Shown: positions 43,515 to 45,372 of the stretch, one piece after another
Position numbering within the stretch: the first letter of the stretch is position 1
Layout of the letters: each line of letters starts with the position of its first letter
Source: Sphingomonadales bacterium Ga0077557
GTDB lineage: Bacteria > Pseudomonadota > Alphaproteobacteria > Sphingomonadales > Sphingomonadaceae
DNA length: 64,000 bases
Assembly: GCA_001464615.1 (NCBI GenBank)
Contig: LNFI01000032.1
Location: 1-64,000, forward strand
Reading direction: 5' to 3'
Translations under genes and position numbers: made by a program
The notes under the pieces: model-generated
Seen by the model: only the letters and a program-made list of their open reading frames with translations
Told to the model about the DNA's origin: nothing
The model's database searches: none

Positions 43515-43615
43515 TCCCGAAAATGCTTGGCTGACGGTCACCTTATTTTAGGTGTTGTTGGCTATGAAAACGGCTCCAGAGGGTATCCGGGCGTTTGATC
43601 AAACACTTGGCGGAA

Positions 43616-44671
43616 ATGGGGACGATGGTCGACAGGGCGTTAAAGAGCATTGATGGTGGACAGCCGATTGATCGTGAGGAAGCGACTCGGACGATTTTTC
43701 AACGAATCGGCGTTTTTCTAAGCGATAATCGGCTGGGCCCTGATCCGGTGAACTATGCCTTTGCCTATCGGGTGATGATTGATCCCGTTGGCCCGCTTGC
43801 CAAGGCGGTTGCAGCGCTCACCGATGGCGGTGTGCGGCTGACCAAGCGCGATATTATGGCGCTGGGTGGCGATGTCGGCAACGCGCCGGTCACGCCGGTC
43901 GCCGAGGCTGATCGCAAAGCCGGCGAAGGGCTGGTTGCGCAAACCCAGATGCAGGTCGAAGGCTTTCAGGATCTGGTGATGGCAATGCGCTCCGAAACGC
44001 GCGATTTCGGGCGTGATCTTGCCGCAAAGGCTGATGCCATTCGCGAATCATCTGGCGCAGGTGCGTCAGAAGCAGTGATGCGCATTACGACCGCGATGCT
44101 GGATCGAGTCCAGTCCGCCGAAAGTCAGCTCGAAGCCGCGACGCGCGAAGCGACGGATCTGCGCGCCAAGCTCGAAGAGGCGCGCGACAATGCCAGGCGC
44201 GATCCCCTGACCGACCTCCCCAATCGGCGCGCCTTTGAGGAATGCTATGCCGAGCATCTTGCCAAGGGCGACGCGATGTGTCTGGCCGTGTGCGATATTG
44301 ATCGGTTCAAGCTCGTCAATGACAGTTTTGGCCATGCCGTTGGCGATCGCGTGCTGAAGGCGATTGCTGATGTTTTGGCATCGGAGTGTGACGGGCATAT
44401 GGTCGCGCGCTATGGCGGCGAGGAATTTGTCGTGCTGTTTTCAGGCGTTGACATGGCAGCGGCGAGCGATCTGCTTGAAGGCGCGCGCGCGCTCGTCGCC
44501 AAGAAGCGCTATCGCCTGCGCGAATCGGATGAGCCGCTGGGTGAGGTCACCTTCTCTGCCGGGCTGACGGCCGCTGGGCCCGGGGAAGAGGTTGGCGAGG
44601 CGTTCGTTCGCGCCGATCGCTTGCTTTATACGGCCAAGGCCGATGGGCGGAACCAGCTGAAAATGGGCTAA
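43616..44671 (+). CDS. GGDEF-domain diguanylate cyclase
   Basis: This protein of about 351 residues makes the second messenger cyclic di-GMP. A long helical N-terminal region (about 1-180, with a likely coiled coil QSAESQLEAATREATDLRAK) precedes the GGDEF domain (DPLTDLPNRRAFEE, DIDRFKLVND, ARYGGEEFVVLF). The residues five before GGEEF do not form RxxD, so product feedback at the I-site is probably absent. No membrane segment is seen. Start is uncertain among TTG 43595, ATG 43616 and ATG 43625; GCGGA lies before 43616. Confidence 0.9.
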   Translation: MGTMVDRALKSIDGGQPIDREEATRTIFQRIGVFLSDNRLGPDPVNYAFAYRVMIDPVGPLAKAVAALTDGGVRLTKRDIMALGGDVGNAPVTPVAEADRKAGEGLVAQTQMQVEGFQDLVMAMRSETRDFGRDLAAKADAIRESSGAGASEAVMRITTAMLDRVQSAESQLEAATREATDLRAKLEEARDNARRDPLTDLPNRRAFEECYAEHLAKGDAMCLAVCDIDRFKLVNDSFGHAVGDRVLKAIADVLASECDGHMVARYGGEEFVVLFSGVDMAAASDLLEGARALVAKKRYRLRESDEPLGEVTFSAGLTAAGPGEEVGEAFVRADRLLYTAKADGRNQLKMG

Positions 44672-44793
44672 GGCCCGCTCTCCTGAAAAATTTTCCCAAA
44701 TAATGGTGACCTAAACCAAAAAATCTGGCGTATTTTACTACGGCGCGGCCATCCTTTGGTGAATAACCGCTGAATACCGCCAAATTTTCAGTT

Positions 44794-44809
44794 TGGCACG
44801 CTCCCTGCA
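44794..44809 (+). promoter_or_regulatory. Sigma-54 (RpoN) promoter
   Basis: TGGCACG-CTCC-CTGCA matches the -24/-12 consensus TGGCACG-N4-TTGCA at all but one position, with GG and GC separated by exactly ten bases. The predicted start of transcription is near 44820, 44 bases ahead of a tiny ORF with a strong ribosome-binding site. A CCAAA/TTTGG inverted repeat (about 44780-44796) overlaps the -24 box. Sigma-54 promoters need an activator ATPase; I cannot identify its site. Confidence 0.75.
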
Positions 44810-44821
44810 AAGGCTTTGGCA

Positions 44822-44850
44822 TCGCCGGTTGGATGGTCCAACCGAGGCGA
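44822..44850 (+). other. 5'-UTR hairpin at the predicted transcript start
   Basis: TCGCC-GGTTGGA (44822-44833) pairs with TCCAACC-(GA bulge)-GGCGA (44837-44850) around a TGG loop, giving 12 bp. It begins two bases after the predicted sigma-54 start and ends five bases before the AAAGGGAG ribosome-binding site, so it could stabilise the mRNA or gate translation. Confidence 0.6.
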
Positions 44851-44863
44851 TAAAGGGAGAAAA

Positions 44864-44974
44864 ATGATGTTCCGTTTTGAAAATCTGTCGCGGGTCGTAA
44901 TGTCGGCTGCCGCTGCTTTTGTTTTCGCGACCGTGATGGTCAGCGCCGCTGTGCCCATGGTGCCGATCGCCTGA
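44864..44974 (+). CDS. Small hydrophobic peptide, sigma-54-associated
   Basis: A 36-residue ORF (two adjacent ATGs, 44864 and 44867) is preceded by AAAGGGAG at good spacing. The first ten residues are charged (MFRFENLSR), and the rest is hydrophobic (VVMSAAAAFVFATVMV, then SAAVPMVPIA), so it is either a single membrane helix or a signal-peptide-like product. I do not recognise a named family, though similar tiny sphingomonad proteins come to mind. The stop codon sits inside a strong hairpin (44959-44982). It is not a shadow of any larger frame. Confidence 0.6.
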   Translation: MMFRFENLSRVVMSAAAAFVFATVMVSAAVPMVPIA

Positions 44975-44982
44975 TCGGCACC
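44959..44982 (+). other. Hairpin over the stop codon of the small peptide
   Basis: GGTGCCGATC (44959-44968) and GATCGGCACC (44973-44982) make a perfect 10-bp stem with the 4-base loop GCCT. The TGA (44972-44974) is in the loop and stem. No T-run follows, so it is more likely a processing, stabilising or attenuating structure than a plain terminator. Confidence 0.6.
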
Positions 44983-45008
44983 AAACCACCCTCTGCCTGA
45001 ATTCGAGA

Positions 45009-45119
45009 ATGATGATGACACCCCTGCGGACGATGATCGTCGCCGTCCTCGCCTTTTTGATGACGACAGTCTTGATCCTGGCGCAACATGCGCTGACGAC
45101 CCTCGCGGTGATAAGTTGA
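45009..45119 (+). CDS. Second small hydrophobic peptide
   Basis: A 36-residue ORF with three adjacent ATGs (45009, 45012, 45015) follows the first peptide by 34 bases. The product reads MMMTPLRTMIVAVLAFLM then a second hydrophobic stretch TTVLILAQHALTTLAVIS, i.e. one membrane helix. Ribosome-binding sequence is weak (CGAGA). It has the same length as the first peptide, so the two may form a pair from one sigma-54 transcript. Coding status is less sure than for the first. Confidence 0.4.
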   Translation: MMMTPLRTMIVAVLAFLMTTVLILAQHALTTLAVIS

Positions 45120-45249: not shown

Positions 45250-45372
45250 ATGGCCAAGTCTCAAAAGAAATCGTCCAAGGAAGTCCGCAAACCCAAGGCG
45301 GAAAAACCCAAAAAGACGAACGCTTCCAACCCGTCGACCAAGGGCGCGCTGTCGATGGCGCCTAAGGGCTGA
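45250..45372 (+). CDS. Small Lys-rich basic protein
   Basis: A 40-residue, strongly basic ORF (MAKSQKKSSKEVRKPKAEKP, then KKTNASNPSTKG) ends with ALSMAPKG. AAGGGA precedes the ATG. Composition suggests nucleic-acid binding or an unstructured tail-like protein. I do not know a named family, though tiny proteins of this wording seem familiar in sphingomonads. It ends 8 bases before the PhnA-like gene and may be read with it. Confidence 0.6.
   Translation: MAKSQKKSSKEVRKPKAEKPKKTNASNPSTKGALSMAPKG

Follow-up and report, generated by a model that had tools for sequence, protein, structure and literature searches.

A conserved sigma-54 site and two predicted membrane micropeptides form a probable second PspF operon in Sphingomonas

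A short operon that encodes two predicted membrane peptides is found behind a conserved sigma-54 promoter in Sphingomonas and is best explained as a second operon of the phage-shock (Psp) activator PspF, with translation that may be gated by the transcription start. A probability of roughly 0.7 is assigned to this reading. The conservation, the shared upstream motif, the operon partners and the covariation are observed directly in comparative sequence, whereas binding by PspF, the position of the start, read-through transcription and a role in the membrane are inferences. In the proposed mechanism, membrane stress would free PspF, which would bind upstream palindromes (TTGGCG-nAATTn-CGCCAA) and activate sigma-54 polymerase at the promoter. 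A short mRNA starting near position 44820 would then encode two single-pass inner-membrane peptides. Peptide 1 would represent a Psp-linked micropeptide family, likely relatives of which open the pspA operon and precede a PspC gene elsewhere, and both peptides would most likely act in the membrane beside PspA and PspC, like PspG in E. coli. RNA reading through from the upstream GGDEF gene would fold bases upstream of +1 onto the Shine-Dalgarno (SD) sequence and stay silent; sigma-54 RNA, without these bases, would leave the SD less hidden than in the read-through RNA. If transcription began near -10, the SD structure would be part of every transcript.

The operon has no Pfam, NCBIfam or Rfam match, and, as judged from sequence, a new micropeptide family and start-site-gated translation control are probable. 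Among the matches listed for open-access literature on sphingomonad or alphaproteobacterial Psp, PspF and sigma-54, nothing concerns this operon, and the main text of a 2024 mSystems survey of Psp systems (PMC11237479) contains neither "sphingo" nor "small peptide". The features of the locus within the window, that is, the whole 64,000-nucleotide stretch analysed here, are collected in Table 1.

Table 1. Positions of the observed and proposed elements of the operon in the window
Feature	Position	Strand	Remarks
GGDEF (diguanylate cyclase) gene	43595-44671	+	directly upstream, co-directional; PF00990, 118.6 bits
Degenerate PspF-type site, TCTGGCGTATTTTACTAC	44724-44741	+	6.6 bits at -70, near the usual -68; weak alone
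PspF-type site, ACCGCTGAATACCGCCAA	44766-44783	+	9.9 bits at -28, just below the listing cut
Sigma-54 -24/-12 promoter TGGCACG-CTCC-CTGCA, TGGCACGCTCCCTGCA	44794-44809	+	one mismatch to TGGCACG-N4-TTGCW
Segment -10 to -1	44810-44819	+	covaries with the SD in relatives; proposed 5' arm of the lock
5'-terminal hairpin	44821-44851	+	ATCGCC to GGCGAT around GGTTGG-ATGG-TCCAACC
SD of peptide 1, AAGGGAG	44853-44859	+
Peptide 1, MMFRFENLSRVVMSAAAAFVFATVMVSAAVPMVPIA	44864-44974	+	36 codons, one hydrophobic segment, signal-peptide-like, ends ...AAVPMVPIA
Peptide 2, MMMTPLRTMIVAVLAFLMTTVLILAQHALTTLAVIS	45009-45119	+	36 codons, one hydrophobic segment

The original prediction described a TGGCACG-N4-CTGCA site one mismatch from the RpoN consensus, followed by two 36-residue ORFs with a hydrophobic stretch each and a ribosome-binding site before the first, and all of these elements are present at the locus. 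The promoter has the -24 GG and -12 GC at standard spacing, and RpoN is encoded in the genome. Sigma-54 transcription starts about 12 bases past the C of the -12 element. With this C at 44808, the +1 position, which is unmapped, is presumably 44820 on the forward strand by standard sigma-54 numbering. The motif by itself is no evidence, because it is no commoner than chance either in the window (14 matches at up to two mismatches, 16.5 expected) or genome-wide (TGGCACGNNNNNTGCW, 173 matches at up to one mismatch, 189 for the reversed-pattern control). Conservation across related sequences, not motif count, sets this site apart from chance.

Searched with peptide 1 at a threshold of E≤1, 77 of the 101 same-genus genomes gave a match. 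The 30 best same-genus loci, window included, all contain a sigma-54 site upstream of the match at a distance of 66-86 bases (28 at 11/12 and two at 10/12). A site of at least 10/12 also lies 51-61 bases before the ATG in all 40 weaker same-genus loci selected (E 3e-4 to 0.76), which brings the count at this threshold to 70 of the 70 same-genus loci examined. The search yielded 88 rows, from which 30 were returned as loci and 40 of the remaining 58 were chosen; the 40/40 count refers to this selected set, since 18 rows were left out, among them second hits and several weak rows inside long frames. The rows left out are G020:C11, G016:C1:16149, G010, three pspA-adjacent rows in G081, G089 and G021, and 12 weak rows in G056, G045:C1:1347462, G077:C10, G038:C1, G083:C1:701841, G040, G036:C4, G097, G029:C23, G080, G065 and G064. 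The G010 locus, seen separately as L043, contains a sigma-54 site at 11/12.

A second sample was gathered through the upstream gene. The GGDEF protein, which is 94% identical to its counterpart in a Sphingomonas metagenome-assembled genome, retrieved 28 loci, 27 of them in Sphingomonas or Sphingomonadaceae records, which makes Sphingomonas very likely as the genus of the source organism; one Rhizobium locus (L238) was removed. Picked solely by the GGDEF gene, 26 of the 27 named relatives exhibit an 11/12 site downstream with peptide 1, and control windows of 500 bases from the same loci reach 11/12 in 0 of 289 cases and 10/12 in 7 of 289. The 27th relative (Sphingomonas sp. 7/4-4, L224) contains the peptide behind a promoter that lacks one base between -24 and -12; with normal spacing in the other 26, this shortened promoter is a natural candidate for a dead one. 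A hydrophobic ORF of 25-45 residues follows peptide 1 in 57 of the 70 same-genus loci, and a hydrophobic peptide 2-like ORF follows it in 25 of the 26 named relatives. On this comparative evidence, the sigma-54 site is conserved jointly with peptide 1 in Sphingomonas (70/70 same-genus loci and 26/27 named relatives), as the original prediction had proposed to check; the lack of conservation of ORF and promoter that it named as a ground for refutation is not observed.

The GGDEF gene is a possible source of read-through RNA. In a frame-aware count over 30 long same-genus loci, 27 have a co-oriented frame with a GG[DE][DE][FL] motif that ends less than 400 bases before the promoter; lower counts obtained with a strict C-terminus pattern (38/70) or with longest ORFs (17/30) were discarded as undercounts. 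The scan of the window lists no terminator-like site between 44671 and 44794. On the other side of the operon, a small lysine-rich ORF (MAKSQKKSSKEVRKPKAEK..., 45250-45372) without a Pfam or NCBIfam match is kept downstream in two relatives (L005 and L014).

Peptide 1 (hydropathy 2.14) could alternatively start at a second ATG at 44867, and the start candidates of peptide 2 (hydropathy 2.33) are 45009, 45012, 45015 or an internal ATG. The equal length of the two ORFs is a coincidence of this genome, since peptide 1 spans 35-41 residues across the 70 same-genus loci and peptide 2 is mostly about 27-36 residues in relatives, varying with the chosen start. Peptide 1 combines an N-terminal RF..QR consensus with a single hydrophobic stretch and a tail of the form A..P..P; A29, P31 and P34 are invariant in 19 aligned sequences and do not occur in every weaker relative. 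Substitutions in peptide 1 avoid codon position 2 (416, 117 and 570 at positions 1, 2 and 3). Of the codon changes, 434 are synonymous and 469 are not; all these counts come from 78 close pairs that are not independent. Neither peptide matched a Pfam or NCBIfam family, including PspG, PspB, PspC and PspD.

In other genera, the N-terminus of peptide 1 leads into signal-peptidase-like A-x-A motifs (by eye), and in two loci (L063 and L064) it is joined to a domain like the TonB C-terminus behind a similar sigma-54 promoter. The A-x-A motifs and the TonB-type domain make the relatives of peptide 1 look exported. The 36-residue peptide 1 itself looks like a signal peptide retained as the entire product, and it is inferred, without experimental data on a membrane role, to act in the Psp response as a small effector in the inner membrane. 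A tandem second copy of the family sits beside the first in L040, L041, L044, L013 and L059.

The link to phage shock is drawn from the neighbours of this peptide family. In the same genome as the window, a second exact sigma-54 site precedes pspA, with pspF divergent and pspB- and pspC-like ORFs recognised by eye; the PspF protein scores 476.9 bits with TIGR02974 (cut-off 443.55). Co-occurrence of the operon with pspA was dropped as evidence because PspA is found in 100 of 101 genomes and is uninformative. At least 29 of the 101 same-genus genomes also encode a second, distinct PspA/IM30 gene that scores higher in the family. Among 40 pspA upstream regions fetched from the 100 genomes with PspA, 36 have a small hydrophobic ORF as the first of the operon, 35-68 bases past the sigma-54 site, and three of these leader ORFs are matched by peptide 1 itself. 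The small ORF is missing from the pspA operons of L106, L107, L108 and L116, and L107 has a 162-residue ORF. Many of the pspA-operon leaders (L099-L138) have, by eye, a short GC hairpin (for example CCCCG-N5-CGGGG) soon after the predicted start.

Beyond the genus, a peptide-1 profile matches 69 of 249 wider-family genomes at E≤0.1, with some chance hits among them. A sigma-54 site lies within 250 bases in 28 of 29 fetched loci, and a PspC-like ORF is next to the peptide in 16 of 29 (by eye); all four of the PspC-like ORFs scanned belong to PF04024. These 29 loci include one false hit (L067) and two same-genus loci (L043 and L052), and in L059 the site sits at -240 because the peptide match is the second copy. 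Profile comparison connects same-genus peptide 1 with other-genera peptide 1 (Prob 98.2) and the latter with the pspA-leader peptides (Prob 96.3); the direct comparison of the genus peptide 1 with the pspA-leader set reaches Prob 48.0 only. With short hydrophobic peptides, scores of this kind are only soft evidence, and peptide 2, used as a control, is unrelated (Prob 4.1). The profile of the other-genera peptides matched 32 of 147 genomes at the order level, all from the same family; the promoters of these matches are unchecked. From this sequence context, the activator of the operon is most likely PspF, whose binding is inferred.

A palindrome, gTTGGcg-nAATTn-cgCCAAc, was learned by expectation maximisation from 65 peptide promoters and recurs upstream of pspA. 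The upstream sets were de-duplicated before motif work to 65 peptide and 34 pspA sequences. In 85% of the 34 pspA sequences, the palindrome scores above the 99th percentile of shuffles (3% for reversed sequence), mostly near -91 and sometimes near -27 too. No site above the listing cut was observed in 20 of the 60 listed peptide promoters and in 5 of the 34 pspA upstream regions. In the window, ACCGCTGAATACCGCCAA occupies the place of the -27 site in the pspA promoter of the same genome; its score is reached by 2.7% of 516 own-genome windows of 150 bases. The two pspA sites of this genome score 14.8 and 13.1 bits, against 9.9 and 6.6 in the window. Since the window sites are weak, the regulon assignment leans more on relatives and operon partners than on them. 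At a further locus of the same genome (L032, C6:95030, minus strand), an exact sigma-54 site and, at -92, a PspF-type motif of 10.0 bits precede a probable secreted protein (about 96 residues read, motif TGSRIP, no Pfam match); this locus is a possible third PspF target. Scores of at least 12 bits are found in two of ten pspF loci outside the genus (L191 and L192, class-level sample). Three others of the ten (L183, L185 and L186) exhibit differing ORFs of 47-54 residues after the psp sigma-54 site, each with a hydrophobic segment at its C-terminus (for example ...SWLFFLAGIVVGAILG) and with pspA next in L183 and L186; Pfam has no match for the L183 ORF. Taken from sequence and in the absence of expression or binding data, the operon is very likely controlled by sigma-54 and probably by PspF.

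When taken from the end of the promoter, the leaders of 70 loci form good folds (mean z -2.57), hide the SD (mean pairing 0.75, above 0.5 in 65/70) and outdo the mean of their own chimeras in 69 of 70 cases. A hairpin that sequesters the SD inside the sigma-54 RNA was the first reading of the leader; it was re-tested by segment and dropped because its 5' arm (-10 to -1) lies upstream of the canonical start. Covariation between the SD and the -10 to -1 segment has a z of -8.1 (n=70), and of -5.7, -4.5 and -2.6 when the loci are thinned to 40, 26 and 12 (p 0.0055 at n=12). Segments at -20, -40, -60, -80 and +1 gave no significant SD covariation after thinning (p 0.03 unthinned for -40 to -31), and the coding-region control, a measure of relatedness alone, gave a z of -2.3. 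The named relatives repeat the covariation (z -4.2; p 0.0016 when thinned to 10), and the combined 96 loci give a z of -9.2.

The computed cost of opening the SD is 7.1 kcal/mol with RNA from -60 versus 2.9 kcal/mol with RNA from +1 (70 loci). The RNA from -60 is costlier in 68 of the 70 loci, with a difference above 2 kcal/mol in 50 of the 70; it is likewise costlier in all 26 named relatives. In the window, the costs are 4.55 and 2.35 kcal/mol; this gap of 2.2 kcal/mol stems from the promoter-containing RNA, and the -10 to -1 arm alone shifts SD opening by 0.1 kcal/mol. With RNA from +1, the SD is still partly paired (mean 0.56), and the fold is only slightly better than that of shuffled sequences (z -0.9). 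In the pspA leaders, which have the divergent pspF as their upstream neighbour, the SD does not covary (z -0.8) and the -10 arm makes no difference (3.07 versus 2.95), though their RNA from -60 costs on average 1.75 kcal/mol more (higher in 24/36). SD covariation is weaker in other genera (z -2.1, n=25; L067, L043, L052 and L059 were excluded, and the start of L047 is possibly mis-set). RNAalifold on a MAFFT alignment found three pairs only. Predicted pairing of the SD with bases upstream of the proximal start has support at the genus level and is weak in the window itself, where the lock, like the activator sites, falls below the average.

The same folds could be read as a thermometer or another stress-opened sensor present in all transcripts, with a start at or before -10. 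The strong SD sequestration in RNA from the promoter end and the covarying arms speak for such a sensor, but a start about 12 bases past the -12 C leaves the covarying arm outside the RNA, the pspA leaders lack covariation behind the same promoter type, and Rfam returned three leader hits at chance level only, all far below the gathering score; this reading is considered unlikely. The activator could also be of another sigma-54 type, flagellar or NtrC. The PspF model has eight matches in the genome, with one listed above the cut-off, two of its sigma-54 sites precede flagellar-looking genes (by eye), and a PspF-type motif at one flagellar-type site scores 9.3 bits, close to the 9.9 of the window. 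This score, together with the direct profile comparison (Prob 48.0), keeps the probability of the PspF operon from being set higher. The second flagellar-type site scores only 3.2 bits, however, and a 100% complete genome (G018) has the operon (L030) without an FlgH match; with the PspC partners and the pspA-linked peptide also pointing to Psp, control by such an activator seems quite improbable.

The main functional rival to an effector role is that peptide 1 is a cis-acting leader, for example a translation-arrest peptide or secretion monitor. It opens operons with differing second genes (pspA, pspC or peptide 2), looks like a signal peptide and has C-terminal prolines conserved across the 19 aligned sequences, all of which speak for a leader. 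The second gene in Sphingomonas, however, is itself a tiny peptide recognisable in only 57 of 70 loci, tandem copies occur in two genera (g71 and g85), and the TonB-type fusion fits an exported product, so that a leader role is given only a small chance. A non-coding regulatory RNA with incidental ORFs, to which the structured leader would lend itself, is scarcely credible given the codon-position bias of the substitutions (416/117/570) and the conserved residues. The PspF-controlled pair of membrane peptides remains the preferred reading. The sigma-54-driven, stress-inducible membrane-peptide pair of the original prediction is supported in this form, with stress induction and the membrane role inferred from sequence. 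Beyond that prediction, phage shock is probably the stress system involved, the pspA operon likewise begins with a peptide of similar kind, and the longer RNA can, in computed folds, cover the ribosome-binding site.

The available parts of PMC2763126 and PMC3709507 describe E. coli PspF and sigma-54 as controlling pspA and a second, separate promoter, that of pspG. The proposed Sphingomonas regulon resembles this system (pspABCDE plus separate pspG) in its second separate promoter and in the layout of the E. coli pspF-pspA gap, where the palindrome GTTAGTGTAATTCGCTAAC lies at -82, but the Sphingomonas motif gives this palindrome no more than 3.3 bits. The Sphingomonas peptides differ in matching no Pfam or NCBIfam family and in being shorter than PspG, which has about 80 residues, and in Sphingomonas the pspA operon, too, starts with a similar peptide. 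PspC-domain proteins (PF04024) follow peptide 1 in other genera, whereas the second gene in Sphingomonas is a different, shorter peptide. For phage T4 gene e (lysozyme), soc and I-TevI, the portions available of PMC3014915 and PMC2988022 report that longer, upstream-initiated RNA hides the ribosome-binding site and that proximal-promoter RNA is without the 5' arm. The putative Sphingomonas lock would operate alike, with a longer RNA hiding the SD and a proximal-start RNA lacking the arm; unlike the T4 case, it is proposed from sequence alone and concerns a bacterial chromosome, a sigma-54 promoter and a GGDEF neighbour. A bolder statement, held only tentatively and at somewhat below even odds, is that in sphingomonads a family of free-standing signal-peptide-like micropeptides serve as phage-shock effectors or export sensors made only from the PspF/sigma-54 start RNA, with read-through RNA locking itself, as a chromosomal counterpart of the T4 lysozyme switch.

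If the PspF reading is true, a micropeptide branch outside Pfam and NCBIfam would join the phage-shock response of a bacterial family, and a role would be explained for a second PspF operon in Sphingomonas. The operon would also provide a case of start-site-gated translation control that is testable with few reporter constructs. Such tight double control would also suggest, by inference, that making the peptides in the absence of stress is costly or harmful.
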